In this document: positions 7,066-64,000 of the stretch, piece after piece
Position numbering within the stretch: position 1 is the stretch's first letter
Layout of the letters: each line of letters starts with the position of its first letter
Origin: Bolinopsis microptera
Taxonomy: Eukaryota > Ctenophora > Tentaculata > Lobata > Bolinopsidae
Reading direction: 5' to 3'
Length of the DNA: 64,000 nucleotides
NCBI RefSeq assembly: GCF_026151205.1
Contig: NC_087074.1
Coordinates: 4,462,001 to 4,526,000, forward strand
The notes under the pieces: model-generated
The model's input: only the letters and a program-made list of their open reading frames with translations
What the model was told of the DNA's origin: nothing
Databases searched by the model: none
Position numbers and translations under genes: made by a program

Positions 7066-8516
7066 TTAATTTTCGGCCTTACTATTTGGAACGGTTTTGT
7101 CAAAAGTCCTTCTACAAGATTGATGGGGCTGAGTAACTAAAATAGTCGACTTGATCTCCTCAGCCAGATCAGCAGGAGCGGAATTACGATTTATAACTGC
7201 ATTCTTCATCACAATCTCTACCCCGACACTGACAAGACAGGAAGCATCTCGTTTGGCTATTAAAGTGTCCATTAACCGCCCAAAACAGCACGAAGGCAGC
7301 GCTTTTACAAAACAAGTCCGAACTGAGTTACATAAAACACGTTTTACTTCGGTGCTGTGAAACTTTTTGGCGAGCGAGGAATCAGTTTGTGATATTTTGG
7401 AAACAATTTTCTCGACTACAACATCATACTTGTTGATAGAGGAAAAAAGAAGGAGGATTTCGTGGATGATGAAGTATTGTTCTTTGAGTTTTAGCGATTC
7501 TAAGAGGAGTATAATGTTCTTGACGAGAAGGACGCTACATTTGTCGAGAACTTGGTTTCCACAAGTTATGTCGTGTTTGTCGTTCATCAACGACAGTTGC
7601 CCTGAAAAGGTACAGCATGCTTAATCTGAAAACTGCTAAAGTGCTAAGGGACGAAGTTAAATTCAAAACGGGAATAAAAGCTAACAGTCGGCGTTAAATT
7701 TCACGTGATAAAAACTCATGGCTGAGTAGTCACGTGACAGAATGACTTGTACCACAGCACAGAACACATTAACTACTACACTGTAGACTCGTACAGTACA
7801 GTAAACCACAGTAAGTTATCATATGTACTATGTACTAATGTACTAATGTACTATGTAGTAATGTACTAATGTACTAATGCACTAATATACTATACACTAT
7901 GTACTAATGTACTACTCTCACCAGTATGTATGAGGTGTAGAGCGTACAAGTAGTGAGTAGTGTCGTGATCAGATGAGACAGAGAGAATGAGCCGCGCAGC
8001 GTTCTCTATCACCGACCACTGCTCGTCTAACTGCTCCTGTGTGTGGAGACGCACTGTCTTGTATCGTGGTGTGATGCCTACAATTAAACAAGGTAACACT
8101 GGATATTGAGGGTAGGTTATCGAGTTTACCATGGAAATACTGAGTCATGCAGACCCTCCCCCCCCCCCCCCCCCCGGCCCCAGCAATGTTTAAACACTTA
8201 CGAAGGAGAAACTGCCATATCTGGGCTCTGTTGTTGAGTTTATTTGAGGGTGTAACTAACAAATAGTGCTTTATTTTATCCAAGTCAATCTCGTCCGCGT
8301 GGATGTCCAGGATTTCCGTCTTCCGAGATTGAATTCCTTAGGTTTAAAATGTTGTCATAATATAATGTAAGACAGAAACAGTGAAGCAAGTTATAACATG
8401 AGCCAAACCTAAAACTACAGCCTGGTTTAGACTAATGATATGTTTAACATGACTCACCTTAACCATGACTCACCTAAACTTGTTAAATACGTCGCTCGAT
8501 AATCCTTCTCTGACAT
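7066..8516 (-). CDS. TBC1D7: TBC1 domain family member 7 (TSC complex subunit)
   Basis: Four exons: 8474-8516, 8202-8336, 7922-8077 and 7066-7601 (stop TAA at 7066-7068). All junctions are GT-AG with matching phases and give 289 residues; human TBC1D7 has 293. Family landmarks in order are the N-terminal MSEKDYRATYLTS stretch, KTEILDIHADEIDLDKI, and the TBC core entry RAQIWQFLLRITPRYK, equivalent to the R-x-x-W-x-x-L-L-G region. Next come a helical segment, and the C-terminal block RTCFVKALPSCCFGRLMDTLI...VGVEIVMKNAVI, which aligns with the human RCFAGCLPESSLQRVWD...VAVEILL region. In animals TBC1D7 is the third subunit of the TSC1-TSC2 complex, which restrains Rheb and mTORC1, and it stabilises that complex rather than acting as a strong GAP. 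Intron 3 holds a minisatellite whose first unit lies about five bases from the 5' splice site. The assignment rests on remembered family sequence, not a search. Confidence 0.93.
7824..7916. repeat. Minisatellite (TACTAATG-type) at a splice donor
   Basis: About eleven imperfect 7-9-bp units around TACTAATG fill the start of TBC1D7 intron 3 and end within about five bases of the donor of exon 3 (GTGAGA at 7921). Units vary in length and one carries TAGTAATG. Confidence 0.75.
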
Positions 8517-9350
8517 GATGTCTGACCAATTACTACTTCCTAATCAAGTGGAGATGTTTTAGACTGTGATATTTTGGTTTAGTGAGGTCAACAAATTAAT
8601 TGAATCAATCAATTAATTGAAAACAGCGTAATTCAATAGCTAGTTTAAAAGCAAGGACTTTATAAAACTAGAAAAGAAAAATTTTACAGGGACTTTGAGA
8701 AAAAGGTGAAATCCATCCGAATGTAAGCGTTGAACAATTATCAATGAATATTTATAATGTACATTTGAGTAGTATGAAATCTAAATACGTCAAATGTATG
8801 AATATCTAACATTATAACAATAACATGATTATAACGTTCACAGCACCCTATCATACTATGAGGATGAGAGAGCATTGAGCAAGTGCCTTCAACAAGCTCT
8901 GAACATTGGCAATTCGATGAAATGAAGAATTTATTTTGATTATATACTAACAATCTAACCAGCATTATAATCATTAAAACGGTTTACCTGACACTCAATT
9001 GCTCATAAAATGAAATTGTATCTCACAAATCAAATATAGTAAGATAGTGTAAAATAGGCCGACAGAATGCTCCAATTCATTCTTTAAAACAGATAGTCAA
9101 TAAACACGAGAGCTTCTCTAGTTTTCTGGGTAAATTTACAAAATAATCAATCAATTATTACTCAACCTAACAATCTAAAACTAATTATTCCATCGATAAT
9201 CTTGGATACTGGTGAATAAACAAAATGTATCAAACTCACAAGTTCAGCACAAAAACTGATATTCTAATCACGTGACATGCTCTACTCATGTACATTGTCT
9301 CTGTTAATGTCTCTGCTAGTAAAACACCATGTTTCTAGAACTGTGACACC
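8517..9350. other. Spacer between TBC1D7 start and ZFYVE19 stop
   Basis: Presumably TBC1D7 promoter plus ZFYVE19 3' UTR, since both genes read leftwards. No coding exon or repeat family is recognised. A frame at 8741-8974 lacks supporting signals. Confidence 0.4.
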
Positions 9351-13067: not shown

Positions 13068-13075
13068 GGCCTTTC

Positions 13076-19276: not shown

Positions 19277-19284
19277 GGCCTTTC

Positions 19285-19660: not shown

Positions 19661-19689
19661 TGTAAGGGTAACCACTTCATATTTCGATA

Positions 19690-38400: not shown

Positions 38401-41400
38401 TATGCTCAAATAATGTGGTAATATTATTAGGTTCAGTAGGTAGGTATGCTCAAATAATGTGGTAATATTATTAGGTTTGTTCATAAAATCTGAACTGATA
38501 AAAAAGTCAATAATCTTGGTTTTCAACACTAAGTCTCGCTTGAATGACTTAAATGTACATCTTTGTTGGGTATATTTTAATGTCGAAGCGTGTAATAAAT
38601 GTTAGAATTTATTTATTATTTATTAGGTTCAGTAGGTAGGTGTGTGAACGGTCAACAAGTCAAAATATAACTGAACATCTAAAACGAAGTAAAAGAGAGA
38701 GTAAATGATAACCTGTTAAAACTGAAATTGGTTATAACATATTATGTCAGTTCGACGGAAATGCGGCAAGTTGATTAGCCTCCTCGTGGGCTTACAAAAT
38801 TAAACAAAATTAAACAACTTTTAACAAAATTATCGGCTATAAGAAATTCAGTGAAAACGGCTATTAGCCGGTTATAAGCCGGCTATAAGCCGGTTATAAG
38901 CCGGCTATAAGCCGGTTATAAGATATTAACTCAGTTCAGTACGATATCTAAACTTTCGATACCTAAACAGCTAATAGCCGGCTTATAACCGGCTAATAGC
39001 CGTTTTCGCTGAATTTCTTATAGCCGGCTCCTGACTATCGTTCAGTACGATGAAGTTGAGTTAATATCTTATAACCGGCTTATAGCCGGCTTATAACCAC
39101 TTTCGATACCTAAACGGCTAATAGCCGGCTTATAACCGGCTAATAGCCGTTTTCACTGAATTTCTTATAGCCGATACCTAAACGGCTAATAGCCGTCGCT
39201 CAACAACAAATGTAAGCGGCTACTAACCGGCTATAAGCCGGCTTATAGCCGGCTATAAAAATTGTAGCCGGCTATAAGCCGGTTTATAGCCGGCTTATAA
39301 CCGGCTTATAGCCGGTTGGTGATCTACCAATTTCCCAATTATCCCTCACTACATCATGTGGCCAGGTCAAGATTCATGCGAGATTGGGAGTAAGGCTTAT
39401 CGCACAAAATTTGTAAATAAACACAGAAAAAATGTAACAAGAAAATAAATAAGAAAACAGAAAAAGTTTAATTTAAAGGTTGAGGGACACAATAATTAGG
39501 AGCTTAACATGGCGTGCGATCACGTGTATTTTATCACTTGTTTTAAATATTGTGAAAACTTTGACGTAACGCGCGCGAGTTTTATGCGAGATTTTTGCAA
39601 GATTCGTCTAAATCTCATCCTCAGGCTCGCGATGAGGCGAGTCTAACCGCGAGCCTAAGGTTTGCTTAGGCGGCCTAGTGGTTAGAGCATCTGCGCAGAA
39701 GCTCAGAAGGTTTAAGGTTCGAATCACAGTGTCACCTAGTCTATGGAGTAGCTAAGGATCCATTGAATCTATGCGATCTCCCCGTTTGACTCAGTCGAAT
39801 GATAGGAAACTAAATTTACGGTTAAATGAGGAGGGTCACTCTCAGAAAGGGCGAAAGGAGGAAGGATCTGGAACAATTTTTGAAACATTTGTTTTAAGGA
39901 ATGAATTCTCGTAATAAAAAAAGTAAATTTGGACTACAAGGGGCGAATTTCGTGCAGTTACACTGCAGTTTGACAGGATATATGGCAAATGAGGCCACAA
40001 AAGTTGCCCACACCCCCCCCCTCCGTGACACGTGACAATCGCACTTTAAAATGCTCAAAATCCAGTCTCATCGCACTTTCTCAGGAATCTTTCTATGGGA
40101 TCATGTGAGTCTAGAGATGTAATCTATACTACTACTACTACTATGTCGGAACTAAGTCCGATCTACGCCAGATAACACCTCCATATATCCCTGTCCCGCA
40201 TAATCTATAGAGATTAATTAAACAGCACGGAAATAGTTATTACCATGGACCATGGTAGCTGTAACAGAAATTCGTGACTGTAAAGTGCGTATTAAAACAC
40301 AACATCGGATCTCGGCACCATTGGCCATGTTTCACTTACATTCTCGAAAGAACTATACAAATATATTTCTTGATTTATTCTGTTTTTCATACCAAGAACA
40401 ATCCGGTAGCTTTTAAACCTTCATTTATTTATCAGGTGCTGAGTTTTACGATGCCGAGACAACGCTCACAAACTCTTTCCAGTCCTTTCTAACGCCCAGG
40501 ACTCTCGCTGAGACTAAAACAACGTTAGATCACACGGTAAGAATCAAACATTCTCATTTATTACTACGAGTAGTTTTTTATAACGATTTACTTAACCATG
40601 TCTATAAAACAACTAAGAAAAACGTCACTCAAGTTATGTGTGATGGGTATATTATATATAACAGGGATGTAGTACAACAGATATGTAACAGATATGTAAC
40701 AGATATGTAACAGATATGTAACAGATATGTAACAGATATGTAACAGATATGTAACAGATATGTAACAGATATGTAACAGATAATCAGATATGTAACATTT
40801 ATATAACAGGTATGTATCAGGTATGTAACAGATATGTAACAGAAATGTAACAGGTATGTAACAGAAATGTAACAGGTATGTAACATGTATGCAACAGTTA
40901 TGTAACAGGTATGTAACATGTATGTACCAGGTATGTAACAGGGATGTTACGGGTATGTAACATGGATTTAACAGTTATGTAACAGTTATGTAACAGGGGA
41001 TGTAACCAGGTTGTAACAGGGATGCAACAGGTATGCAACTGTATGCAACAGGTATGTAACATAGATGTTATCAGGTATGTCAGGTATATTCAGGTAATGT
41101 TACTGGTATGTAACAGGTATAACAGATATGTAACAGGTAGTAACAGTAATGTACATGATTGTTAAACAGTTATGTAACAGGTATGTAACAGGTTTGTAAC
41201 AGGGATGCAACAGGTATGCAACAGGTATGTAACAGGTATGTAACATAGATGTTTACCGGGTATGCTCAGTATATTCAGGTAAGTTACGGTATGTAACAGT
41301 TAGTAAGGTTCAAGATATTAACAGGTATGTAACAGGTATGTTACATGATGTAACAGTTATGTAACAGGTATGTAACAGGTATGTAACAGATATGTAACAG

Positions 41401-42902
41401 GTATGTAACAGGTATGTAACAGGTATGTAACAGGTATGTTACATGATGTAACAGGTATGTAACAGGTATGTTACAGGTATGTAACAGGTATGTAACAGGT
41501 ATGTTACAGGTATGTTACAGGTATGTAACAGGTATGTTACATGATGTAACAGGTATGTAACAGGTATGTAACAGGTATGTTACAGGTATGTAACAGGTAT
41601 GTAACAGGTATGTTACAGGTATGTAACAGGTATGTTACAGGTATGTAACAGGTATGTAACAGGTATGTAACAGGTATGTAACAGGTATGTTACATGATGT
41701 AACAGGTATGTAACAGGTATGTTACAGGTATGTTACAGGTATGTAACAGGGATGTTACAGGTATGTAACAGGGATGTTACAGGTATGTAACAGGGATTTA
41801 ACAGTTATGTAACAGTTATGTAACAGGTATGTAACAGGTATGTAACAGGGATGCAACAGGTATGTAACTGGTATGTAACATAGATGTTACAGGTATGTTC
41901 AGGTATATTCAGGTATGTTACTGGTATGTAACAGGTATGTAACAGGTATGTAACAGGTATGTAACAGGTATGTAACAGGTATGTTACATGATGTTACAGG
42001 TATGTTACAGGTATGTAACAGAAATGTAACAGGTAAGTAACAGCTATGTGACTGGTATGTTACAGGTATGTTACATGATGTAACAGGTATGTAACAGATA
42101 TGTAACAGGTATGTAACAGGTATGTAACAGGTATGTTACAGGTATGTTACAGGTATGTAACAGGTATGTAACAGGTATGTAACAGAAATGTAACAGCTAT
42201 GTAACAGCTATGTAACTGGTATGTTACAGGTATGTTTGGAGGACCTACCCTCGCCCCCCAAGATTCCACCCTCACGATCTGACAGTGTGAAGTCACGTGT
42301 TGATCAGTTTAATAAGTGGACTCATCTCTCGCGGACGCTTGCTAAGGACTCATTTGTAGACGTGAGTTTAAATTTTGAATTGATCTTTTTGATAAGCTTA
42401 AAATTTGAATCAAGAAACTGGAAACATCCATAATATATTGCCAAGAATAAGTCAATTTGATGTTAAGTTCACATGTATCTGGTAATATTGGTTAGACGAT
42501 GTGTTTGATTATCTCCGTCTAAACCCTTCTGAACCTCTCTGAACCGCCCCGCCCCCGCGCCGGCCCCTGATCGTTTCTCCCTCACAGGACACAACACATT
42601 CACCTCTACGTAGATCAGCCCTCCGTGACGTCACCCAGGACAACACCTCCCCAACAGGCTGCAAACGCAAACTCAAGAAACAAGTCTCGTTTGTGGAGCA
42701 CAACGAGAGCAACATCTACCTTTACACCCCTGCTCCTTGTACCCCCCAACAATGCGCTGCTAGTAACATGGTCCACTCTCCCCCGCCTTACGAACAGATT
42801 GCTGGACTAATCGCTAACAGGAAGAGAGCCGGAAGAGGGAGTTTTAATAGATCTGACCAGTTCATTGATGCGACGTCGTCTTTCTCGCACAACATTCGAT
42901 GA
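35439..42902 (+). CDS. Unknown protein with a PP1-docking-like motif
   Basis: Four exons, 35439-35478, 40436-40536, 42230-42361 and 42588-42902, join in phase (1, 0, 0) and give 195 residues. It starts MFEDTTIDLENVT and contains SFLTPRTLAE, LPSPPKIPPSRSDSVKSR, KRKLKKQVSFVEHNES and a basic tail KRAGRGSFNRSDQF. KQVSF fits the [RK]-x-[VI]-x-F docking motif for protein phosphatase 1, and TP/SP sites are frequent, so a phospho-regulated disordered protein is plausible; this is inference. I do not recognise an orthologue. An acceptor one base before the ATG suggests a 5' non-coding exon. Intron 1 (about 5 kb) holds the nested ApeC gene, a 44-bp satellite, a palindromic satellite and a SINE. Intron 2 is almost wholly an 11-bp minisatellite whose last unit provides the acceptor of exon 3. 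Confidence 0.6.
35479..36352. other. Intron sequence, nothing recognised
   Basis: First part of the large intron of the 35439-42902 gene, up to the nested ApeC gene stop. AT-rich; no repeat family or exon is identified. Confidence 0.4.
36353..37243 (-). CDS. Secreted coiled-coil protein with ApeC-like C-terminus
   Basis: Two exons, 37178-37243 and 36353-37033, join in phase 0 and give 248 residues. Exon 1 encodes a clear signal peptide (MSLIKLVVLFAYIALATS). Residues about 25-165 form a long coiled coil with a duplicated LEEGQTEQDKNL unit. The C-terminal 80 residues, starting WPEGSYCILGSGGSCPDGFT and ending DIVITSCCK, match the second half of the ApeC domain of apextrin-like proteins (W-P-x-G-x-Y-C-I, C-P-x-G-F, C-C). 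Known ApeC proteins of lancelets, echinoderms and cnidarians are secreted or granule proteins that bind microbial glycans; a role here in recognition or matrix is inference. The gene lies entirely inside an intron of the plus-strand gene at 35439-42902, on the opposite strand. Confidence 0.75.
37495..38476. repeat. 44/40-bp satellite array, about 22 copies
   Basis: The unit is TATGCTCAAATAATGTGGTA followed by ATATTATTAGGTTCAGTAGG and an optional TAGG. The optional 4 bp gives 44- and 40-bp units mixed along the array, and a G/A switch (GTGGTAAT versus GTGATAAT) marks two unit types. A further stray half unit (TTATTAGGTTCAGTAGGTAGG) lies at 38621-38641. It sits in intron 1 of the 35439-42902 gene. 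Open frames through it are artefacts. Confidence 0.95.
38477..38854. other. Intron sequence between arrays
   Basis: Unique-looking AT-rich sequence with the stray half-unit of the 44-bp satellite; no exon is recognised. Confidence 0.35.
38855..39318. repeat. Palindromic (TATAAGCCGGC)n repeat with inverted arms
   Basis: Runs of TTATAAGCCGGCTATAAGCC and variants alternate with spacers that also appear inverted. One example is GAAATTCAGTGAAAACGGCT at 38904 and its complement AGCCGTTTTCGCTGAATTTC at 38988-39018. Another is GATATTAACTCAGTTCAGTA, which reappears reversed near 39040-39070. Each GCCGGC-centred unit is self-complementary, so single strands can fold into stacked hairpins and cruciforms. 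Confidence 0.85.
39660..39800 (+). mobile_element. tRNA-derived SINE
   Basis: TAGTGGTTAGAGCATCTG fits an RNA polymerase III A box and GGTTCGAATCA a B box, spaced about 35 bp apart as in tRNA. The folding sequence is too degraded for a functional tRNA, for example in the acceptor stem. The following body is unlike any tRNA. It lies in intron 1 of the 35439-42902 gene. Confidence 0.6.
40676..42229 (+). repeat. 11-bp minisatellite (ACAGGTATGTA)n filling an intron
   Basis: About 140 units of TAACAGGTATG or TAACAGATATG run from shortly after the exon 2 donor to exon 3 of the 35439-42902 gene. The final unit, GGTATGTTACAG, supplies the acceptor. On the sense strand most units contain CAG-GTATGT, which matches the consensus 5' splice site exactly. 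Some zones (41040-41320) are degraded. Higher-order blocks with ATGTTACATGATGTAACAGG recur at about 41440, 41530, 41690 and 41980. Confidence 0.95.
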
Positions 42903-49698: not shown

Positions 49699-52600
49699 TT
49701 AAAATAATTTATTCTTCTGGATAAAATCCATAGTTTTCTCAACAGTTTCCTGATCAATATCACCTTCCTTCTGAAGGCTCTCCAGGATTTCCGATATGTT
49801 GAACACACTTTTAATGTTGAACTTGTTGTTGGCCAAGTTGATGTGACCCCCTTGCTGTCGGTCCAGTAACACCACACCCTCCGTAGCTTTCAGACCTGTC
49901 GGTTATCAAATATAATCCTCGGAAATGGCAGTTGTAGATTAAAATCTATTTAATTGAAATATATTATGCACGACAAATTTCAACGTTGGACAGAGAAATT
50001 TCATGGTACATTGGGGTGCCAACTACATTGTGTAATTGTGTATACTGTATAAGTAAAAGTAGAGACAAGGATTTAAACAAACCAGCTTTTTCTAGGACAT
50101 CGACAGTTTCAAGAATACTCCCGCCCGTAGTAATTACGTCTTCAATGATAAGACAGGACTCTCCTGCTTCGAATATGCCTGGTGTTGTGAAATGTTCTTA
50201 TTTACTGAATCTCAAAACTACAAATTTAACATGTCAAACCATAGCAAATACTATGCAATCAGCAATGGTTTTTTATAAATGAGTAGGCATATGTGCATGG
50301 TAAAAATTGACGATTTATTTCACCAATGCAGCGTCGCGCATCAACATTTAATAAATGCAGAAAATTGCGGAAAATAACTTTGCGAAGGAGGAATTTCACT
50401 GTAATTAATTAACACATGGCTAGCGTCGCGCGCAGCATAACACACGCTTAACTATACACTTAATTATAGGGGTTGATTGCCAGGGGTTGATTGCCAGGGC
50501 CCTCCGTTTCTACAACGTCCCCGAGAATAACCTTCCGAATACCTTCTCCGGGGTATTCGGAAGGTTCTCCTCAAGAACGGTGACATCAGACTGGCAGCAG
50601 TTTGAGATAGGAATCTTCATGGGGTGTGTGATATCAGTCATCTTGTTTGTCTTGTGCATGAACCTTGGGCATGAACACCTAAAGTCTAAGGTTCCGAGAA
50701 GCATTGAGTACATCAAGGATGACACACCGATACCAACTCTGAAGCTGTTTATGGACGATAGCTGTCTGACGACCGCACGTGCAGAGGATATGCAAACGTT
50801 ACTCAATGTGTTTCAGAAGTACGTGGACTGGTCCAGATTTAAGTTAAAGTCCTCCAAGTCCAGAGCACTGGTGTTGAAGAAGGGAGTGGCTGTGAGGTGG
50901 GTTGAGGAGGTAGTGGTAGGAGAGGAGGAGGTGGAGAGAGAAGAGGTGTGTTTGCAGTTGGGTGGTGAGGTGATTCCGAATGTGTCAGAGAAGCCGATAA
51001 AATTCCTTGGGAGATGGATAAGAGTGGAAGGAAATGACAAATCAGTCATCGACTCAACCAAGGTCGACCTTAACACTTTTCTTCGGAGACTCGATGAAAG
51101 TTCCCTTACTGGACTCCAGAAGTGCTGGGGATATCAGTACATGGTCCTTCCAAAACTGAAGTGGCCTCTTGCCATCTATGATATTCCGATCACAACAGTT
51201 ACCAGATGGGAACAGAATACCAATAGTTTCCTCAGGAAGTGGTTAGGGGTGGGGCACACTCTGAGTGGTCTTTGTCTGTTCAGTCAATCATCCAGTGTGG
51301 CCTTACCGGTGAGCAGTTTGACAGATACATGGAAGATAGAGAAGTGTCGACTGTTGCAATCCTATCAGACATCTAAGGATGACCTGATTAAAGCAGTCCA
51401 GCCCCAAGTTCGTTCTGGTAGAGTTTGGAGGCCTGAGACAGAACTGGAAGAGGCCAGAAGAGATTTGGTCTGTGAATCGGTGCGAGGGATGGTGCAACCT
51501 CAAAAAAGAGTTGGCATCGGTTTTGGTGACTGGAAAAAACCTTGGGAGAGGATGGATGAACGGGAAAGAGAGAGGGAGGTTATGCTGAGAGTGAAGGAGA
51601 ACATTGAAAGAGAGAGGGAGGTGCAAGTAGGTTCTCTGGAGATGCAGAGCAGGTGGGGTGAGTGGAGAGAGCTCGTAATGAAGACGGATTTGAGCTGGCA
51701 TACACTTTTTAAGTATGGTGACTCACTTATTGGGTTCATGCTAAGTGCTGTGTACGGCACCCTCTTAACCCCCTCTATGGTTTCCAAGTGGAGTGAAGAT
51801 GAGGATGGGAAGTGCAAGTTATGTGAGGAGAGGATGGGCACCATTCAGCACATTTTGGCTGGGTGTAAGGTGGCCCTTAGTCAAGGAAGGTATAGATGGC
51901 GGCACGACAAGGTTCTGAAGCAGATCTCTGAACAGGTTGTCTTCCATTGTGATCGCCGAGTGAACACTTATAAGAACAAGGCCGGCGATGGAAGGCAGTT
52001 CATTGATTTTGTTCCTGCTGGGAAAAGGAAAGCAGGTACAGACGACCGGAAGGAGAGTCGTGGGTTTGGGATCCTGAGTGGGTATCGGGATTGGATAGTG
52101 CTGTCAGACCTTGAGGGGCAGCTTAAGTTTCCCAGTGAGATTGTGGAAACACGGCTGAGGCCGGACCTTGTGATATTCTCAAGGTCGGCAAAGACAGTTA
52201 TTTGGTGGGAGCTAACAGTACCATCTGAAGAGCGGATCGCTGAATCGCACGAGTACAAGCTCGACCGATACAGCGGTCTGCAGGCTGAGATTCAGGCGGA
52301 AGGTTGGTGCTGTTATAATGCCGCAGTCGAAGTTGGAGCTAGGGGAGTGGTTGCGCAGAGTTTGGAGAGAGCTGCGAGGAGGATTGGTTTTAGGGGAAGA
52401 GAGCTGAAGAAGCTGGTACGGGACAGTGGGAAAGAGGCAGCCCACTGTTCCAGATGGATCTACTTGTTATCGAGAAAGAGGGAGTGGGAGTTCAGGAAGG
52501 TTGGAGCTTGAGAGTTCACTATAACATCTAGAGGTACCATAAACGTTATCTCGTCGCCAATTGCGAGCTCTAACGGGTCTCCTCAAGTGACTCTCGGATC

Positions 52601-54511
52601 AGATGGTGGTTCAAGGGTGGACTGCTGGGGCGCCTGACAGGAAACCGTATTGCGATTAAAGCCCCGAAACGGTGTCAGGTTGGTAACTGATGATTCTGAT
52701 CCATGCTCCTGTGAGTTTGCTGTTGTATCTCAACTCACTAAACTGAGGCATCTCCGCATCTTGGGTGAATATGCGTACATCTTCATACTAAACCCAGGTG
52801 TGGCATGTGTCAGTGAATACGGGCGAGCGGATGCAATAGCGAAGGTGGTGTGACAAGGCCTAAAAGACACAGTCAGATAGTTGTCAGCTCGCTGACTGTA
52901 AGGGAGAAGGTATATCCGTATTTCGCTGCTACTGATGCAGTCCTTGATCTGGCAATCAAGGCTTCTCTGTTTTTCGTCTAACTATGTACCGTTGGGCTTG
53001 TGGAACCCGTCAGGGGGACATACATAGGTTAGAATGGTTTTGTGCACCAAGAGGAGTGAGGGAATGAGGGTTGAAGAGAGAGAGCTAGAGAGTTGTTAGG
53101 GTGGTTAGGATCAGTAGGTGGAGTGTTTGGTTGGAGCGTTCTGTTTTTGCTGTATAGCATTTTAGTCACTCCGCAGTTTATTAACTGTGTCTCAACTCTG
53201 ACTGGAAAAAAGTGCAACATATTTACATACTATGCAATCAGCAATGGTTTTTTATAAATGAGTAGGCATATGTGCATGGTAAAAATTGACGATTTATTTC
53301 ACCAATGCAGCGCCGCGCATCAACATTTAATAAATGCAGAAAATTGCGGAAAATAACTTTGCGAAGGAGGAATTTCACTGTAATTAATTAACACATGGCT
53401 AGCGTCGCGCGCAGCATAACACACGCTTCCTATACACTTAATTATAGGGGAGTGGTCTATATTGCGAAGGAGCAGACTTTTGTCGACATCGTAGGACCGT
53501 CGGGCCACCTCATATATCCAAACCCGATTACTTATTCCCTACGATCTTTTTGCCTTCGGCAAGAGTAGGGAAAAAAATGAGCATCACGATAAAGTTAATA
53601 CAAAAAAATACAATCTTCACCTTCAACCATTTTCTTAGTGCCGTAATCTTTCATCTCTTTTCTGCGGATAACCATAGGTATATCGTGGTCCACTGAGATG
53701 ACAGTTGCTATGGGGAGGGCAGTGTAGGGGACCCCGCAGATACATGTGTACTTCATACCATGTGCTGCTTCGTACAGTAATTTAGAAGCGTCCCTCATAA
53801 GTCCTGACAGTTGGGTGGTAACAGTAAGTTTTAACTTTTAGTTTAGGAACGTATAATTGTGATTATACATATTAGCGACAAGAGAAACGCCATTGTTGGA
53901 CGTGAGGAGAGTGAGGACTCTTCAAACTACATTAAATTAATTCCTTCTGTAACGTCCTCAATAATGTTAAAGATTTGTAGTGTTGTAATTAGTTTAAAAT
54001 GATATTTTCACTCAATCGGAAATGCAAAAACTGTTGTATTTTCCTAATATCCTAAGTGATTAAAAGTTACTAACGGGGCAAGGAAACCAGAGCTAAGTTA
54101 CTAACGGGGCAAGGAAACCAGAGCTATAAGTTACTAACGGGGCAAGGAAACCAGAGCTAAGTTACTAACGGGGCAAGGAAACCAGAGCTATAAGTTACTA
54201 ACGGGGCAAGGAAACCAGAGCTAAGTTACTAACGGGGCAAGGATACCAGAGCTAAGTTACTAACGGGGCAAGGAAACCAGAGCTAAGTTACTAACGGGGC
54301 AAGGAAACCAGAGCTAAGTTACTAACGGGGCAAGGAAACCAGAGCTAAGTTACTAACGGGGCAAGGAAACCAGAGCTCTCAGATCGAAGTAAACCGGACT
54401 CATTATCCCGCTCTTTAGTTTAAACTCTCCGAACTTGATGGCCCCATGTGAGTAAAGCTCCTTCACAAACTTCACCTTGTCTACTGGCTCATCTATCCCT
54501 CTTGTACACAT
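49699..54511 (-). CDS. Orotate phosphoribosyltransferase, no decarboxylase domain
   Basis: Exons 54358-54511, 53621-53803, 50083-50178 and 49699-49895 join in phase and give 209 residues. The protein matches the N-terminal OPRT half of animal UMP synthase (human UMPS residues 1-214): [20 protein letters not shown], the [14 protein letters not shown] loop, [16 protein letters not shown], the PRPP-binding motif [13 protein letters not shown], and [10 protein letters not shown]. It makes orotidine 5'-monophosphate from orotate and PRPP. The stop falls right after [10 protein letters not shown], exactly where the linker to the decarboxylase begins in fused UMPS, so this is a stand-alone OPRT. Exon 1 uses a GTTAGT donor that, with 21 bases of coding sequence, is copied in a 31-bp tandem array downstream. 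Intron 2 (3.4 kb) contains a LINE on the opposite strand. Confidence 0.9.
50248..50472. repeat. Left 225-bp direct repeat flanking a LINE
   Basis: From ATACTATGCAATCAGCAATG to ACTTAATTATAGGGG. The same block is at 53227-53450, with one substitution (GCGTCGCGC versus GCGCCGCGC) and one small indel (CTTAACTAT versus CTTCCTAT). The two copies precisely border the LINE at 50473-53226. Confidence 0.92.
50473..53226 (+). mobile_element. Restriction-like-endonuclease LINE, 5'-truncated
   Basis: A 2.75-kb insertion in OPRT intron 2, opposite to the host gene. It starts with a short duplication of GGTTGATTGCCAGG, encodes the 674-codon ORF at 50487-52511, and ends with a roughly 700-bp 3' UTR in which a phrase such as CCCCGAAACGGTGTCAGGTT may be structured. 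There is no poly-A tail. The 225-bp direct repeats on both sides look like an extremely long target-site duplication. Confidence 0.75.
50487..52511 (+). CDS. LINE reverse transcriptase (partial) + restriction-like endonuclease
   Basis: A 674-residue frame. The N-terminal finger motifs of the RT are missing. Residues about 35-100 hold the palm: [20 protein letters not shown] and a catalytic FMDD at 88-91. The thumb region follows ([16 protein letters not shown]). At about 455 is a zinc knuckle (CKLC...TIQHILAGC), then a conserved [11 protein letters not shown]. The endonuclease motif is [20 protein letters not shown] followed by [20 protein letters not shown], matching the PD-(D/E)-x-K fold of R2/NeSL/Hero-type LINEs (E-L-T-V-P). 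The ORF is open to the end, but without complete RT fingers it is probably inactive. A 15-bp perfect inverted repeat lies within the first codons (50529-50566). Clade assignment below restriction-like-endonuclease LINE is not attempted. Confidence 0.85.
   Translation: MIARALRFYNVPENNLPNTFSGVFGRFSSRTVTSDWQQFEIGIFMGCVISVILFVLCMNLGHEHLKSKVPRSIEYIKDDTPIPTLKLFMDDSCLTTARAEDMQTLLNVFQKYVDWSRFKLKSSKSRALVLKKGVAVRWVEEVVVGEEEVEREEVCLQLGGEVIPNVSEKPIKFLGRWIRVEGNDKSVIDSTKVDLNTFLRRLDESSLTGLQKCWGYQYMVLPKLKWPLAIYDIPITTVTRWEQNTNSFLRKWLGVGHTLSGLCLFSQSSSVALPVSSLTDTWKIEKCRLLQSYQTSKDDLIKAVQPQVRSGRVWRPETELEEARRDLVCESVRGMVQPQKRVGIGFGDWKKPWERMDEREREREVMLRVKENIEREREVQVGSLEMQSRWGEWRELVMKTDLSWHTLFKYGDSLIGFMLSAVYGTLLTPSMVSKWSEDEDGKCKLCEERMGTIQHILAGCKVALSQGRYRWRHDKVLKQISEQVVFHCDRRVNTYKNKAGDGRQFIDFVPAGKRKAGTDDRKESRGFGILSGYRDWIVLSDLEGQLKFPSEIVETRLRPDLVIFSRSAKTVIWWELTVPSEERIAESHEYKLDRYSGLQAEIQAEGWCCYNAAVEVGARGVVAQSLERAARRIGFRGRELKKLVRDSGKEAAHCSRWIYLLSRKREWEFRKVGA
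53227..53450. repeat. Right 224-bp direct repeat flanking a LINE
   Basis: Partner of 50248-50472, ending ATTATAGGGG before GAGTGGTCTATATTGCG. The near identity suggests a recent insertion. Confidence 0.92.
54064..54376 (-). repeat. 31-bp minisatellite copying a splice donor, ~10 units
   Basis: The plus-strand unit is AAGTTACTAACGGGGCAAGG plus AAACCAGAGCT, with an occasional TA between units. Read in the gene sense, each unit is the last 22 bases of OPRT exon 1 (coding L-V-S-L-P) followed by its GTTAGT donor. The exon-proximal unit is the real exon end. Read-through into the next unit meets an in-frame TAG at once. Confidence 0.95.
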
Positions 54512-54896: not shown

Positions 54897-57800
54897 TCAA
54901 TCTATGTTTATAACTAAAGGATCACTCGCTTTCAGCAGAACTCTTTCCGCTGTATCATCCACAAAGTTGATTCTGTGAATGTACTTATCCATAAAGCATG
55001 CACCTTCCTCAGAGCAGGTGAACAACTGAGAAATGTAGAAAATTGGTCACAGAAGACCTAAACTTGGTCACAGAAAACTTGGTCACAGAAGACCTAAACT
55101 TGGTCACAGAAGACCTAAACTTGGTCACAGAAGACTTAAACTTGGTCACAGAAGACCTAAACTTGGTCACAGAAGACCTAAACTTGGTCACAGAAGAAGT
55201 ATTCTTAAACGCTTTTACGAAGAATTCTGGCGAACTTATAATACGCTGTTTTAAAACAAACCAATAGCAAAACAAGTAGTTGTACTGGTTTAAGATGACA
55301 TACCGTGATAGCAAGATCTGCAGCCCCAGAAGCTACAAGTGGAACCTGTACCACGTGATCAGTAACGGGTACCTCGTGACTCTCCCTTCCGTGTGTCGTG
55401 TAGTGGGTTATCTTGATGATACTAGGAGCGGAGGTGTTAAGATGCTTGGTGAAGGACAGGGAGAGTGTCAGAGATGTTGTGTGCTCCTGTGGGATTCAGG
55501 ATTAGGAGATTAGGGGGGGGGGGGGGGGGGGGGGCACTGGTAGTAGACAACTGACAACTGGGAAACATTGAAAATTCCTATTTTCATAAACTTATCTTAA
55601 ATAATAGAATACCACCTTAATTTCAAACTAACCATCAAAACAAAACAAATGTCAATCTAAGCAAAACTCAATTCGATATTGGCTGAAATAAACTTCACCT
55701 CAGTGAGGACCCAAGAGACCCCCGTACTACTGGATACCCTGGCTCGGTCGACTACTCCCACCTCCCAGCTCTCCGAGTTCTCCCCTAACTTCACTACTCT
55801 TACTGCGTGGTTGTTAGTGTCCGCTACGTACACACACCCACTTTGTGGGTCGTGGGTGAGTCCTGATGGCTCCGACAGACCTGTAGGTATACTTGTATGA
55901 GGAGCATTAAATAGAAATGTATGTTATCTTATGTTAACTTTTATGTAGACGTTAAAATTGTAAACGCTGCTAAGATGGAACAGCAATGGAGTGCAGCAAA
56001 TTTCGCAAATTAACAATTTTCTCAACTTCTTTCTTTACGGAGGAAAATATCAGAATCTAGTAAGATCATATTACCTACCAGTTATTTGAGAGCAGGTCGA
56101 AACGACGCGAGATTTGGTTTGGATTTGCTTTATCTTGTGATTGTAGGAGTCAGCTACCAGAAGAGTCTGGTTACCATGGTTACCAGTGATTGTTATTCCT
56201 ATCGGGTGTTGTAACTTGGCTGTCGTTCCTGGTAGGAGGAGGATCGTCAGTTGTACAAGAGGGAAAGTTGTTTGACTCAGATTATTTTGGAAAATTTCTC
56301 ATCTTATTGTTCAATGGACTTACTCGAACAGGCGCTCGCTAACTTTCAATTTTGTTTCCTATAAAATTGGGTGCAAATTGTTCTAATAAGTCGTAGAATT
56401 TACAAATTAAAGAAACTAACTATTTGACAATAAATTATAACAGTACCTTTTCCGTCCACATCTCCGTAAGAGAAGAGGTCGGAAGGGTCTAGGCCTCCCC
56501 CAGCCACGTTCTTCACAGCAAAAGAAGGAAGTTCCACGGATCTTACCGTGCTGCTCTCGCTGTCTGCCACATACACGAACTTACTACCGTCATAACTTAG
56601 TCCTGGCGGGGGAGATGGTTTTACATTCGGGTTTAAACAAGACTGTGGGGGGCGGGGAAGATGGTTTTACATTCGGGTTTAAACAAGACTGTGGGGGGCG
56701 GGGAAGATGGTTTTACATTCGGGTTTAAACAAGACTGTGGGGGGTGGGGGAGATGGTTTTACATTCGGGTTTAAACAAGACTGTGGGGGGGGGGGGGGGA
56801 GGGGGGGGGGGAGATGGTTTTACATTCGGGTTTAAACAAGACTGTGTGGGGAGATGGTTTTACATTCGGGTTTAAACAAGACTGTGGGGGGAGATGGTTT
56901 TACATTCGGGTTTAAACAAGACTGTGGGGGGGGGGGGGGGAGCTGGATCATCGCTGATATGATATGTATATAGGGTTTCTATTATGAGAACGGAAGTGTG
57001 ACAGTTTAGAATTTCAGTACGTGTCGAACTACAGTGCGTATACCCTCCAACATTAGAGTTTAGAGTAGAGAGAACAACATGAAACAAAGAAATTACATTC
57101 GTCGTCAAAACAAAGGGCCACTTTGTTTTAAAATGTGGTAGTTTCTTAGTTTTTATTGCGATCTATTTACACATTAAATTATCCAAATTATTTGAGACAA
57201 TGGATATAATGAGGTCGAAAGAGCAGTTTCCTTTGTCGGCATGAAAACAAAAACTTGCTCCATGTTTCATACATGAAACGTATAGTTGGATACATAAGTT
57301 TCGTTTGCTTTGTCGGTGTCCGAAAGCAACCTTATTTTACTTCAAATCAAATCCTCTTATTGTTGCTTTAATGTAACGTCCAGTCCCTAAGGGCTACGGA
57401 TCGCTAATTGATTGACGTGAAGAAATTATCATTTTGCGCGTGAAGTGATTGATTTGCTTCAGAAGTCTTAAACGTTTGATTATTTTAAGTAGAAACTGAA
57501 GGTCGATCCATCAGTGCATGACCAGCCAAATTAGTCTGAAGTCCAGCTCCCTGTTATTTGCTTAACCTTAACCGGGGCAGGAGGTAATCATAACCCTAAT
57601 TGGGGTTTAATTGTGTTAATATGTTAGGGTTATAATCACTTCCTGTAATAGGGTTATGATCACTTCCTGTGTCGGTTCTCTGCAAAAAGGGGGTCGAAGG
57701 GTCCCTACTTTATCACTTTCCTCGTTCTATTCTTAAAATTCAAAACGTAGGAGGCATCCTTAGTATTTGTAGTTCCTACTTCCACGTCACCTTCATTTTC

Positions 57801-60800
57801 CAGGTCACCCTATGTTTACATAGAGTTTCAGTGTACGTGCGTGTTGGTATTATATGTTTATTATATTTTAGCACATCAGTATTTGCTGCATCGAGATATA
57901 AATCAATAGTACTGTCAACAGCTAAAAATATCAAAATTTGTTGTCTATTATTTCTTGAATCTTCATTCCAAGACAAAATGGAATGTCCGTATGGAAGGAA
58001 GTTTAGCAGTACTCAACAGTCAACTTCGGTGTACGCTTTCTAATGATTCATATATTAAGACGCAATGAAACTACCGGACCACGATGTCCGGTAAATCCTC
58101 AATAAATCCTCAGTAAATGTATTTGTTTTTTGAATTTTCAACAACATTGGTAGCTTCTTTGATTTGTCCTACAATATTTCCTACCAGAGGGTTGAGCGAA
58201 GGAGGCTTTGTGAGGGTAAGAGTTGTTCTTGTTAGCTTCGTCCCCACTGCCAGCCAGTCTCCACGTAGTAGAGGCTTTATATTCAGTATTCTTACCTGAC
58301 CAGGGTTCGTGTTAAATGTTAAGATTATATCTGGTCGTCAGAACCGGTTGGAAAAACAAAAACAAAAGTCGGTCCTTTCTACTTAGGCATTTACTCAGGT
58401 ATTTGTTAACCAATGAATGATTTGAACTTCCTGCATTCTTTCCTGTTGACATTTTAGAATTATTATTGGGATAATGAATCATTTATGGACATTCTATCCT
58501 ATTTAGTGGCAGTCGATGGGAAGCACAGTTTTGTAATATAGCTACATAATGAAGTTATGAAATCGTAAATTGTTTGAGTAAAGGAAAGGAGGATACATTA
58601 TCACAATAATAATACTATCTGAAATGTTAACAGGAAAGAATGCAGGAAGTTCAACTCATTCGTAATGATAAGATAATTTGAACTAACAGACAGAGGCGAT
58701 ACATAAGTGCGGTGGGTGCGGAATTGACCAAATACCGCATTTTTTACACATCATCCGTTATTCGTTCTAGCAGATCTAGATTTGAGGTTATTTATTTATT
58801 TATTATACACAGAACCAGTGGCTACACAAGATTAAATTGCAAAGTTATTGGATACATCATTGCCCATTTGTTTGTTAAACATTCTATGAGGGCAATTCTA
58901 AAGATTTATACATCCTTGCCCATTTGTTTGTTAAACCTTCTATGAAGCAATTCTAAAGATTTATACATCTTTTACACATTGTGGGTAAAAGCTTAATTTG
59001 TTGCTAACTACAATGTCTAATTGTGACGTGCTTAAGTGACTCAATTTGAATCTGTTAGGAGTGTGATGAACACGAGTTGTTGATCTGCAGTCAGGCTTAT
59101 CTGTTGTTGTTATAAGTTGCCGCGTTATCAGCTCGACACACCATACTATTGATAATGGACACTCTAGGTTTTCACGGAACTCTGTGAGCGACATCGTATG
59201 ATACATTATATGTTCGGCGCGCGTACATCCTGGGTTTGGACAAGATATGCCCGCTCAATAAATGCAATAGATTTGTAGTGTTGTAATAAGTTTAAAATTA
59301 AAATTTGTTGTTTTTTGTTTTTTTATGTGCGTCCTCGTCGGACGCATCAGATTAATTATTACATTGCACATCAGATTTAAATATGATACGGTCATATTTC
59401 GAGTCTGTCTCCATTGGATTCAGCTGTATACACTCACTCTTTATACACTCACTCTATATACACTTTTATAAGTATTACTAAATAATAATTCTCTAGGAAA
59501 AGAATAAAATGGATTCTTCCGATGACGAAGCGGTCCAAGGAACGAACTTCACCTCTGATGTCAACAAGTACACAAAGCTAGGAGAGAAGAAAATCCAAAG
59601 ACTCAGAAACCTGGATTTGTTCGTGCTGGACAATACGATGAGGGAAACGACAGTTGGTTCCCTCCGTGGTCACACTCTGGAGAACAAGAAACTTATCTAC
59701 GAAGAGGTAAAGAAGTGCAAATTTCAATATTTCGTGATAGAGTCCTTCAACCACGAAAACAGGGTGGGGGATGTCCTGTTGAAGGAGCTAATCGAGAAAG
59801 GAGAGGATATGTCCTATGCTGTCGGATTCTCGGAGGTTTGGGAGAGTATAGTTGAGAAGGTGCCTCAGGACGAGCCTATTCCGATTGGAATGCGGAAGTG
59901 CAAAGAGTACGGTGTAAAGCACGTGATATTCGAAATCGATCTGATGTACTACAAAGTGGATTACGAGACGTTTAACATGACTGAAGTCTGTAAGATGGTG
60001 GGGAACCGAATCAGATGGATGAGAGAAAACGTGGCCAAGGATTCAAAGATGTTTTTCAACTTGAGAGATTTTGGGGATACGATGACAAATCACCCTGACC
60101 GAATCTGGAAGCTGACAAACTTCCTTGCAAGTCTTCCAGCGGAGGAGAGGATCGCTGGAATAGCCTTCGAAGACGTGGGAAAGTACCACAAGGATCTGCT
60201 AGGAGGCTGGACAAAGGCGGTGAGGAAAGAGATGCAGAGGTGCGGGTGGAAGGACGGCGAGCTGATATTCCACCAGCACGAACAGTGGGGTACAATGCAT
60301 GGTGACGTACTGGAGGTGTTGGCGATGGGAGCCACCGGAGTGTGGTGTGGGTTGTGTGCAGAGGGTGCCGCAATGGGACACGCTGACTCCTGCACTACCA
60401 TACTCAATCTCATAAGACTTGGAAACAAGAAGGTGCTGAAGAAGTTCAACTGCAAGCATCTCCGGGATGCTGCTATAAACGTGACGAAGATTGTGACGGG
60501 GCTTCCACCATCTCCAAGACAGCCAATTTACGGTGAACGAGCCATAGACATGGTTTTCGGATTTGTCTTCTCAGGGGTAGCGGATGATGCTTCTATTTAC
60601 ACTGACGGGTTTGACTTGGCTGAATTCTTGGGGCTTGAAAAAACTATACGGATATCGAACATGGCCAACCCACCAATGATTTTGGAGAAGTTGAAAGTAA
60701 CATTCGGTGAGGATCCTCAGTTCACGATGAAGATGGCAGAGGATATGAAAGACCAGATACTAGAAAACACAGTAGACGAGAAACGTAAAGAGGAGTACAA

Positions 60801-63800
60801 CAGTCAAGCTGGACTAGCCATGTTGTTCGACCAGGCAGGTGGCCAACTTACCAAAATCATGTCTGACATTATAATCGAATCCACCAATAACACCCTACAT
60901 ATAAACGACATAATAGCACAGATCAAGGAGGATTGGGAGGTCTGGGATGTTAAGGACGGAGTTAAAGACAACCAGATTACCTTCGATCACTTCTACAAAG
61001 GGTTCATGGCGCCCTATTTCGGTTGCTACACATGTGAGGATAGCCAGGTAGCTCTGGGATGTCTGGACATAGACACTGACGGGAATATAGATTGGTTTGA
61101 GTTCAGAACATTCTTAGTGTGGGCTGGTAGGCAGTATCCTGGAACTAAAGATAAGCAGGAGTTACTGGACCATGCCTTCCGTCACGGACTAATTCCGGCC
61201 ATGAAGGATGAGCTGGATAAAAAGAGGGAGGAAAAAAGAATAGCTAATGGTAAGTGACCATGCGTGAAAAACTGTTATAATAAATAAATGTAAATCAGAG
61301 TTACTAAAGTTTAATTGCATTTGATTTTGACTTTTGAATTTCGTTGAGTGGAAAACTGTGACTCAGATACTAAACATTTTATTTTTGGAACATTTTGTAT
61401 ATTTTTGGATTAATCTTAGGAGAAGGTTTTGTGTTGTATAAAATTTATGTATAACTCATTGAGACTAGGCTTCAGCCACACTTTCAACAGTTACGTAGCG
61501 GTATTTGCTTAAAGAGTGCTCTGGACACCTATTTGGACTTACTACTTTACTTCTTAATTAATATTAATAAAAGCGTGTTTCATTTGTAACCACAACAGTC
61601 AACAGGGAAATAAATTTCACAGGTGGAAAATAAATTTTGAAACGTAGTTCATAAACCAGTTAGTAATTATAACTGTTGATATAAACTGTAAATATAAACT
61701 GTAAATATAAACTGTAAATATAAACTGTAAATATAAACTGTAAATATAAACTGTAAATATAAACTGTAAATATAAACTGTAAATATAAACTGTAAATATA
61801 AACTGTAAACATAAACTGTAACTGTAAATATAAACTGTAAATATAAACTGTAAATATAAACTGTAAATATAAACTGTAAATATAAGCTGTAAATATAAAC
61901 TGTAAATATAAACTGTAAATATAAACTGTTAATATAAACTGTAAATATAAACTGTAAATATAAACTGTAAATATAAACTGTAAATATAAACTGTAAATAT
62001 AAACTGTAAATATAAACTGTAGATATAAACTGTAACTGTAAATATAAACTGTAAACTGTAAATATAAACTGTAAATATAAACTGTAAATATAAACTGTAG
62101 ATATAAACTGTAACTGTAAATATAAACTGTTGACTGTTTATACCTCTGTGGGTGATAGAAACATCAGTGAGCGCGTAGCCCCATATCTGATGGGTACCCG
62201 CCATTGCTATCATCAGCAGGTTTCCATGACAACCAGTCACACTCTGAAGAGGAATCAGCTCTATATCCCAGGGACTGCTTATCTCTTGTTCAGGACCTAG
62301 CGAGAATTAGTTGTCAAGAAGCGCTGTTTCAAGGTTCTGGAATGAGATGTGTATTCGTTATCAGTCGCTATAGTTCTACTAATACAGGGTGGGCCAAAAG
62401 TCAGTACCCATACGTTGGCCTTTATAGCTCAGTCACTGAGTGCCCAATTTAAATACTTCTTTCTGGTATGAGTTAGTACCACCACTGGTTCGAGGAATTT
62501 GTCAACTCGAAAAATATTCGCGTTCATTTTTTTCAAATGGAGGTTCATTTTCACATTTATTTGATAGTTTGGATAGTCGGATCAAGCTAAATGTTATTGA
62601 ATTGTGTTTGGCCATTCGAATTACGTTTGTCCTGAAAGAATTAGAACTGTAGCTTCTCAGATGACCGAGATATGAAGCATAACGAGTTTATTCATTACGT
62701 GTGATCAGGTGATTGGTTTACCTAATCACGTGATAAGGTCCCCCGTTAACTACCCCGTTAAACATTATGGGAATTGTTAAGGGTGCCCAATTAAGGTGTC
62801 GTGTCACGGTGTCACATAATCACCCAGTCAATTTTGTTAACGAGATACAGAAAATGCTTGATAACTTCGTCATTTCTAATCCGTTTTGCCTCATGTTTTC
62901 AGATCATATGCAACATTTGATAATCTACCGTCTCTGAAAAAATTAGGCGTTCAGCATGTTCAGAGAAAACAATATAGGTGTTTTAATATTGAATGGGCTT
63001 GGTCTAAAATATTCGAATTTTCAAATTTTGACGACGGAATCCTCGAACCAGTAAATACAGTATGCCATCTGCAAAGCAACAGCTCTCAAATATAAAACAC
63101 GGCGGAGCTGTTAAGGCCAACGTATGGGTACTGACTTTTGGCCCACCCTGTAGTAAACTGGAAAACTCCAATTATTATTTAATATTTAAATCGAACTTTA
63201 CACAAACCTAAAGTAGTCAACAATAAAGATCTGATAAGTCTACAACAACATCAGTAAAACGTATTAAACTCCATATCTCCTAAACAAACAATGTCCGCAC
63301 AATGAAACATACCAACTTTTCCTCCCTGGAGATCGTGTCCCTGGTTACCAGTCCCACAGACCACCTCCAACACCCCCCTCTCCAGCTCCATCCTCACTAC
63401 CCGGTGGTTGTTAGTGTCACACACGTACACCCACTCCTCGTAAACCAGTAATCCCTGGGGACTGTTCAGGGTGGGGGACTCTGGGGAGGGGTACTTGTGC
63501 AGTATCTCACCACTACTGTTCGTCTGGTGGGGTGGGATCAGGTTATGTGGTAACTAGGTGGTAACTAGGTGGTAACGGAGTAGTAACTAAGTAGTAACGA
63601 AGTGGTAACTAGGTGGTAACTAGGTGGTAACGGAGTTGTAACTATGTGGTAACTTGGTGGTGACTTAGTGGCGACCAGGTGGTAACTAAGTGGTAACAGA
63701 GTAGTAACTAAGTAGTAACGAAGTGGTAACTAGGTGGTAACTAGGAGGTAACTAGGTGGTAACTAAGTGGTAACAGAGTAGTAACTAAGTAGTAACTAAG

Positions 63801-64000
63801 TGGTAACTAGGTGGTAACTAACCTGTAGAACACGATTGTTAGCAGTATCGGAGATAAAGAGAGTGTTGCTGTCAGAGTGATAGAATATCTTTCCGGGGTA
63901 ACTCAGTGTCTTCTTCTTCGAGTTTAAACCCTGAGATATTGAAAATGTATAGCTTAAATCGCAATTAGATAATCCCATTTAGTTACCATAGATACCACAT
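54897..64000 (-). CDS. NHLRC2: NHL repeat-containing protein 2, partial (C-terminal part)
   Basis: Eight exons in consistent phase: 63823-63930, 63313-63523, 62144-62284, 56447-56602, 56079-56228, 55699-55880, 55304-55486 and 54897-55025 (stop TGA), together 419 residues. The N-terminal thioredoxin-like domain lies beyond the right edge. The beta-propeller blades show the family repeats [40 protein letters not shown] with VVCGTGNQG, and [14 protein letters not shown] with [13 protein letters not shown] (the hallmark A-M-A-G-x-H-Q-I-W). They continue with [30 protein letters not shown] with [14 protein letters not shown], and [22 protein letters not shown]-terminal beta-sandwich and a Cys-containing tail follow ([10 protein letters not shown]). 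Human NHLRC2 is essential and linked to fibrosis with neurodegeneration; its biochemical role is unsettled. Its largest intron (56603-62143) houses a separate plus-strand gene, and four introns carry minisatellites. Confidence 0.93.
55042..55200. repeat. 21-bp minisatellite in NHLRC2 last intron
   Basis: About seven copies of ACTTGGTCACAGAAGACCTAA start about 17 bases from the acceptor of the last exon. Because 21 is a multiple of three it reads as LVTEDLN repeats on the plus strand; this is an artefact of the intron, not a protein. Confidence 0.93.
55512..55536. repeat. Poly-G tract in NHLRC2 intron
   Basis: About 20 consecutive G on the plus strand (C on the gene strand), 25 bases upstream of the acceptor of exon 55304-55486, where it would serve as the pyrimidine tract. 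Confidence 0.85.
56612..56940. repeat. 46-bp minisatellite with G-runs, ~7 units
   Basis: Unit GATGGTTTTACATTCGGGTT plus TAAACAAGACTGTGGGGGG and a variable G-run. It starts about 10 bases from the acceptor of exon 56447-56602. The last units have lost part of the G-rich segment, and one has an expanded run of G interrupted by A. Confidence 0.93.
56941..59508. other. Intron sequence, no gene; small inverted-repeat element
   Basis: Left half of the large NHLRC2 intron. At 58427-58656 inverted arms TTGAACTTCCTGCATTCTTT and AAAGAATGCAGGAAGTTCAA border a 230-bp MITE-like block; no clear target duplication is seen. At 58860-58965 a 65-bp segment containing GCCCATTTGTTTGTTAAAC is tandemly duplicated. 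An acceptor (TTCTCTAG) just before 59497 implies a 5' UTR exon of the nested gene somewhere in this region. Confidence 0.5.
59509..61257 (+). CDS. DRE-TIM (HMG-CoA lyase-like) metallolyase with EF-hand
   Basis: A single 582-residue coding exon after an acceptor (AATTCTCTAG) in the 5' UTR. Residues about 30-350 form a TIM-barrel of the HMGL/isopropylmalate-synthase type: [16 protein letters not shown] carries the D-x-x-x-R-E signature (Asp41, Arg45, Glu46), and [15 protein letters not shown] carries the metal-binding H-x-H (His255, His257). These suggest a divalent-metal lyase or condensing enzyme acting on acyl-CoA or 2-oxoacid substrates; the substrate is unknown. Residues about 435-545 form an EF-hand-type module with one good loop, [12 protein letters not shown] (520-531), and a degenerate partner near [13 protein letters not shown]. 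The product ends at GK after a charged helix. There is no signal peptide or obvious mitochondrial presequence. The gene lies inside an NHLRC2 intron, on the opposite strand. Domain calls are by motif, so exact relatives are unverified. Confidence 0.82.
   Translation: MDSSDDEAVQGTNFTSDVNKYTKLGEKKIQRLRNLDLFVLDNTMRETTVGSLRGHTLENKKLIYEEVKKCKFQYFVIESFNHENRVGDVLLKELIEKGEDMSYAVGFSEVWESIVEKVPQDEPIPIGMRKCKEYGVKHVIFEIDLMYYKVDYETFNMTEVCKMVGNRIRWMRENVAKDSKMFFNLRDFGDTMTNHPDRIWKLTNFLASLPAEERIAGIAFEDVGKYHKDLLGGWTKAVRKEMQRCGWKDGELIFHQHEQWGTMHGDVLEVLAMGATGVWCGLCAEGAAMGHADSCTTILNLIRLGNKKVLKKFNCKHLRDAAINVTKIVTGLPPSPRQPIYGERAIDMVFGFVFSGVADDASIYTDGFDLAEFLGLEKTIRISNMANPPMILEKLKVTFGEDPQFTMKMAEDMKDQILENTVDEKRKEEYNSQAGLAMLFDQAGGQLTKIMSDIIIESTNNTLHINDIIAQIKEDWEVWDVKDGVKDNQITFDHFYKGFMAPYFGCYTCEDSQVALGCLDIDTDGNIDWFEFRTFLVWAGRQYPGTKDKQELLDHAFRHGLIPAMKDELDKKREEKRIANGK
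61258..61667. other. 3' flank of the nested metallolyase gene
   Basis: Probable 3' UTR (AATAAATG at about 61281) and intron DNA before the 13-bp array. Nothing else is recognised. Confidence 0.4.
61668..62135 (-). repeat. 13-bp minisatellite (AAATATAAACTGT)n, ~35 units
   Basis: The array runs to within about ten bases of the donor of NHLRC2 exon 62144-62284 (GTATAAAC). On the gene strand each unit reads TTTATATTTACAG, which itself resembles a 3' splice site. A few shorter units (AACTGTAACTGT) break the periodicity. The 1.5-fold frames across it are artefacts. Confidence 0.95.
62385..63150. mobile_element. Mariner-type MITE, copy 2, 766 bp
   Basis: TA-flanked, with ends CAGGGTGGGCCAAAAGTCAG and the exact complement CTGACTTTTGGCCCACCCTG. 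The inverted similarity continues through CCCATACGTTGGCC. The interior has no transposase. It lies in the NHLRC2 intron between exons 62144 and 63313 and is the better preserved of two copies. Confidence 0.88.
63538..63822 (-). repeat. 11-bp minisatellite (GTGGTAACTAG)n spanning an intron
   Basis: About 25 units of GTGGTAACTAG/A fill practically the whole 299-bp intron between NHLRC2 exons 63823-63930 and 63313-63523. On the gene strand the donor reads CAG-GTTAGTTACC and merges directly into the array. Confidence 0.93.

Follow-up and report, generated by a model that had tools for sequence, protein, structure and literature searches.

Minisatellite-like duplications that extend across exon-intron boundaries have been described in amphioxus under the name of mirages, and passages of two reports (PMC3087553, PMC3902484) place them in Adh3, TnC, the globins BflGb6 and BflGb9, and PGBD5. 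The same passages describe repeated splice signals within these structures and copy-number differences between haplotypes. A literature search restricted to open-licence papers, and therefore a weak indication of absence, found no report of mirages in ctenophores. Here, duplications of this arrangement, likewise at both donors and acceptors, were found in a 64,000-bp stretch of DNA from the ctenophore Bolinopsis microptera (C3:4462001-4526000, hereafter the window) and in a set of independent genes from elsewhere in its genome, where copy number differs in one pair of contig copies and is equal in another.

Minisatellites and rebuilt exon edges of the window

The exon edges of the window were rebuilt by homology, and the arrays were called with TRF (Table 1). 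The NHLRC2 model is based on matches to PDB 6g7w and 6gc1, and its seven exons join into a single open frame of 336 codons; the PDB match does not reach the last exon, which was placed by reading frame and splice score. OPRT/UMPS matches PDB 2wns (E 6e-31). The identity of TBC1D7 is weak: its PDB hits are TBC1D7 in five cases out of five, at E 0.02-0.32, and its RabGAP-TBC match (E 4.5e-5) scores 23.7 bits, below the cut-off of 25.2. A Pfam search with the putative gene at 35439-42902 gave no match, and its exons are presumed, with no homology basis.

Table 1. Arrays of the window and their position relative to rebuilt or presumed splice sites
Array	Position	Strand	Relation to splice site
TBC1D7 intron 3, 8/15/23 bp	7822..7914	(-)	start 7 bp past donor 7921
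TBC1D7 exon 1 donor duplication, two-copy, 16 bp x 2.3	8444..8479	(-)	donor 8473
About 143 units of AACAGGTATGT	40676..42235	(+)	extends into presumed acceptor of 35439-42902 gene
OPRT/UMPS intron 1, about ten 31-bp units	54064..54377	(-)	donor G at 54357
Before last NHLRC2 exon, 21 bp x 7.9	55039..55197	(-)	end 13 bp from exon (55025)
NHLRC2, 46/40 bp	56605..56931	(-)	end 2 bp from exon at 56602
NHLRC2, 13 bp x 35	61663..62113	(-)	start 30 bp past donor 62143
NHLRC2 intron, 11/77 bp	63547..63821	(-)	donor 63822, next exon from 63523

In OPRT/UMPS, each unit is made up of 20 nt from the coding end of the exon, then the donor GTTAGT, then 5 further intron bases, and the units of the 46/40-bp NHLRC2 array include both a C-rich run and ACAG. 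The initial annotation had placed arrays against at least seven exon edges of the window. The arrays themselves are real according to TRF, and four of the edges were borne out, namely those of TBC1D7 intron 3, of OPRT intron 1 (whose array encloses the donor), and of NHLRC2 near 55042 and 56612; of the three others listed, one belongs to the presumed exons of the 35439-42902 gene, one is 23 bp from its array and one is no exon edge. The distance of 23 bp applies to the NHLRC2 edge put at 63538: the exon start lies 23 bp from the array, while the other array end is 1 bp from the donor, so that the array occupies most of this 299-bp intron. The candidate edge at 61668 was rejected: the following NHLRC2 exon begins only at 58295, and the other array end (62113) is 30 bp from donor 62143. 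The duplicated donor of TBC1D7 exon 1 was absent from that annotation. A further array, at 37496-38477 (44 bp x 23, within what would be intron 1 of the 35439-42902 gene), lies far from both presumed splice sites and is a counter-example to edge placement.

The suggestion that chance placement was unlikely agrees with the counts. In the 11 homology-based introns of the window, six of the ten arrays are no more than 20 bp from a splice site, against 3.0 expected under a stringent null (P=0.011), and over the entire window the figure is 6/30 arrays against 1.6 expected (P=0.004). Since the window is the discovery set, the statistical weight rests on independent genes.

Other features were observed nearby. 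An intronless open frame of 586 aa (59497-61257, plus strand) lies antisense within the NHLRC2 intron 62143-58296; it gave no match in a Pfam search, and similar DNA (66-67% identity) occurs at five other genomic sites. In another ctenophore, Hormiphora, genes nested within introns are reported (PMC8527503). Long reverse-transcriptase open frames occur at 46115-49222 (minus strand, RVT_1 and an endonuclease domain) and at 50424-52511 (plus strand, RVT_1), and the latter appears to lie within OPRT intron 2, judging by a motif of the following exon that matches near 50150.

Excess of arrays at the splice edges of independent genes

The source genome comprises 264.65 Mb in 232 contigs, of which 13 hold 97.5% of the bases, the largest having 26.2 Mb. 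Nine Pfam families (CCT, proteasome, class I tRNA synthetase, DEAD, adaptin, AAA, mitochondrial carrier, kinase and Ras) were matched exon by exon. The 93 loci obtained are groups of clustered exon matches picked by hand from the listing of each family, and are thus a non-random sample; DEAD, AAA, kinase and Ras candidates were scored in part, those of Ras from the matches listed. Reading frame, protein-model continuity and splice score served to fit the GT-AG junctions. This kept 105 of 147 exon pairs, the other 42 having failed the fit, gap or score limits, and after exclusion of five kept pairs (contig copies or wrapped models) 100 introns from 67 loci remained, with a median length of 231 bp. 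Arrays were defined by a TRF score of at least 50 and a period of at least 7. As a separate observation on the Ras family, at least 16 near-full-length, single-frame matches are clustered on one strand of the genome (G000) at C1:12430829-12459122.

The 100 rebuilt introns contain 31 arrays, distributed over 22 introns, and in 12 introns an array lies within 20 bp of a splice edge. Random placement within the intron would give 3.18 arrays at this distance and 0.91 within 5 bp, against 13 and 10 observed, and the excess was stable over the TRF thresholds tried. The 13 edge arrays divide into seven at donors and six at acceptors, so both types of splice site are affected; the 18 of 31 arrays that lie away from the edges count against growth from the edge. 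Under a more demanding null, in which a duplication of unit length may start anywhere touching the intron, 5.46 edge arrays are expected (P=0.0003-0.0006), and the excess at 0 bp taken by itself is borderline (6 vs 2.89, P=0.05).

Unpaired exon edges, for which arrays were counted in a 300-bp flank, had 11 of 30 arrays within 20 bp (4.07 expected) and no excess at 5 bp (2 vs 2.68 expected). In a replicate on E2 enzymes, with settings fixed before the analysis and 28 of 41 listed matches used (two contig duplicates among them not being counted), five of ten arrays lay within 20 bp, against 1.67 expected (P=0.013); the eight paired E2 introns held no arrays. Altogether, a splice edge is no more than 20 bp away from 29 of 71 independent arrays, where the straddling null gives 11.2, and none of 200,000 simulations reached 29. 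A comparison of array-to-splice-site distances with a control, proposed by the initial annotation for the whole genome, was made here on a sample of other genes and gave an excess; the window observation, which is largely right, holds outside the window as well.

It might be argued that the exon edges are wrong, having been picked because the arrays are rich in GT and AG. The unpaired edges were indeed placed by splice score, and every edge was predicted from DNA. Against this, introns whose joined exons fall within 3 nt of the protein model show the excess too (8/26 vs 2.39, P=0.0006 under a simple null), and the alignment of the spliced OPRT/UMPS protein is ungapped at the junction. We therefore regard such an artefact as extremely improbable.

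A more serious alternative is passive: duplications would arise everywhere, selection would clear them from coding sequence, and arrays would pile up at any coding boundary, with short introns helping. The introns are short, and at 40 stop codons two of seven arrays lie within 20 bp where 0.76 are expected, which in this small control does not differ from the splice edges (Fisher P=0.69). The stops belong to kinases presumed intronless from single-frame matches, so that some in-frame stops may fall within an unseen intron. The edge excess may hence be common to coding boundaries of every type. However, for introns the effect is already built into the straddling null, which the observed count exceeds 2.6-fold, and arrays of at least five copies occur at 12 of 163 splice edges and at none of the 40 stops, though with P=0.13. 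The passive account is on balance unlikely, while deserving more weight than any of the other alternatives.

The arrays might also have been selected because repeated splice sites, branch points or pyrimidine tracts aid exon recognition or regulate splicing. Many units do carry splice-site-like sequence, and a C. elegans minisatellite is over-represented near alternative splicing regions (PMC4039745). Yet the units vary between genes, and sites with arrays do not differ in splice strength from those without (7 vs 93 donors, P=0.91; 6 vs 94 acceptors, P=0.34), so that the earlier idea of a use in splice recognition is left unsupported. Weak splice sites as a cause of the arrays were rejected on the same comparison, which involves seven donors and six acceptors with arrays. 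Branch-point-like words are biased towards the sense strand in only three of six acceptor arrays, with one opposite and two ties; this strand bias was set aside, six arrays being too few. A selected function thus seems quite improbable.

Exon DNA and silent variants within the arrays

Nine arrays in eight genes contain a coding exon end together with its splice site. What has been duplicated in tandem here is the splice junction itself, as in the mirages of amphioxus, and since these arrays contain the exon end with the splice site they have grown from the exon edge. Stages of two to seventeen copies were observed, with two-copy stages in L058 and TBC1D7 exon 1. In the mitochondrial carrier gene L044, the last 34 matched exon codons and the donor are present 17 times over 3 kb; translation of these copies was ruled out, because an in-frame AAG TAA follows each of them and the first part of the exon is missing. 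Some donor arrays begin at the GT: L047 has about seven repeats of GTATGTTTACTGTAACTATG from the donor, and L112 about six of a 35-bp unit that includes its donor. At acceptors, L105 has about ten units, each with the E2 stretch FSVPLFHPNVY and CAG, and the units of L102 carry the stretch VMFIGDPP. The edge arrays beyond the nine only touch the splice site; both arrays of L006, for example, adjoin the acceptor without exon DNA. The initial suggestion that splice-site DNA seeds tandem duplication is thereby supported in part, by the edge excess in independent genes and by the coding exon ends within arrays. Junction duplication at exon edges is what is observed, as opposed to a splice-specific hot spot.

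A dispersed repeat or mobile element inserting at splice junctions would predict shared units. The word AGTTACCA does recur in 8 of 154 arrays from five sources; shuffled units gave four to six arrays, however, in the ten shuffles listed, and three of the eight belong to one locus. Moreover, nine arrays are made of their own exon end, which insertion would not give, and a mobile minisatellite is accordingly very improbable. The motif AGTTACCA/TGGTAACT was noted in the window array at 63547 and in L008, L017, L044 and L051, slightly above its frequency in shuffled units. L044 and L051 are mitochondrial-carrier genes about 20 kb apart (C9, about 1.287 and 1.309 Mb), both with coding-containing arrays.

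The coding copies of the nine arrays, in segments picked by hand, hold 18 synonymous and 6 replacement variants, where 5.75 synonymous ones are expected (P=2e-7); one of the arrays has no variants. Without the L044 donor array the counts are 9 synonymous to 5 replacement, against 3.25 synonymous expected (P=0.001), and without L058, whose two differences are both at the border of the duplicated segment, they are 17 to 5. Across the 17 copies of L044, the nine variable sites all fall on third codon positions: none of 1156 cells varies at positions 1 and 2, whereas at position 3 the figure is 38 of 578. In the intronic 11-mers that separate the copies, 19 of 1265 cells vary, which differs from positions 1 and 2 at P=5e-6. 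In L051 and L107, some differences are fixed between the exon and the copies, which may mean only that the exon changed silently after copying. Intronic copies should drift freely, yet they carry mostly silent variants, which points to recent and repeated descent from the exon or exchange with it. Read from the sequence, the coding copies would be recently and repeatedly derived from the exon or swapped with it, and selection on the exon would filter them.

Copies of a Ras gene on two contigs (C7 and the 43-kb C51), which are either alleles or paralogues, differ in the acceptor array, with 2.0 and 3.7 units. In a second contig pair (C13 and C27), the array size is equal. In the carrier-gene copies L049 and L091, on two contigs, the arrays are equal and one intron is 770 bp longer in one copy (1582 vs 2352 bp), owing to an insertion outside the arrays.

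A proposed origin and its relation to known systems

We consider it probable that these arrays are mirage-type minisatellites, born as junction duplications and exchanging with the live exon. A short tandem duplication would arise over or against an exon-intron junction, taking in exon, splice-site and intron sequence together in the clearest cases. Were the exon-proximal copy spliced, the message would stay intact and the remaining copies would become intron, after which slippage or unequal exchange could alter the copy number. The first copy, being the live exon end, would keep exchanging with the array, and the intronic copies would for this reason carry mostly variants that have passed selection on the exon. 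Which splice site is used, how exchange proceeds and what causes the preference for junctions are here conjectured from the structure of the arrays.

A broader possibility, put forward tentatively and with some doubt, is that a large share of introns are fed by their exons. Exon ends would keep exporting tandem copies with their splice site and exchanging with them, so that intronic repeats would record the selective history of the exon, as mostly silent variation, and keep ready-made junctions permanently available from which introns could grow, slide or be gained. The share is 12% in this sample, and its genome-wide extent is an extrapolation. At about one in eight sampled introns, mirages would be a general mode of intron evolution, beyond a cephalochordate oddity. 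The silent-site bias provides a direct sequence test of outward array growth and exon exchange, and with junction-duplicating arrays, intron-gain models can be tested by comparing individuals and related species.

On the evidence of DNA sequence, the structures described here are of the same kind as the amphioxus mirages. In the passages cited above, the latter concern few cephalochordate genes, with units of 10-160 bp, whereas the present cases come from a ctenophore and affect 12 of 100 sampled introns. Unlike the amphioxus reports, as far as those passages extend, the present analysis adds counts against null models and the silent-site bias in coding copies. The Rogers model of intron gain, by tandem duplication of AGGT, likewise involves tandem duplication with splice signals, and is discussed for mirages in PMC3087553; the present data, in contrast, show arrays at introns and not intron gain. 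CeRep25B, the intronic minisatellite of C. elegans, is over-represented near alternative splicing regions (PMC4039745), but it is one repeat family, while the arrays in this ctenophore are local copies of each junction.
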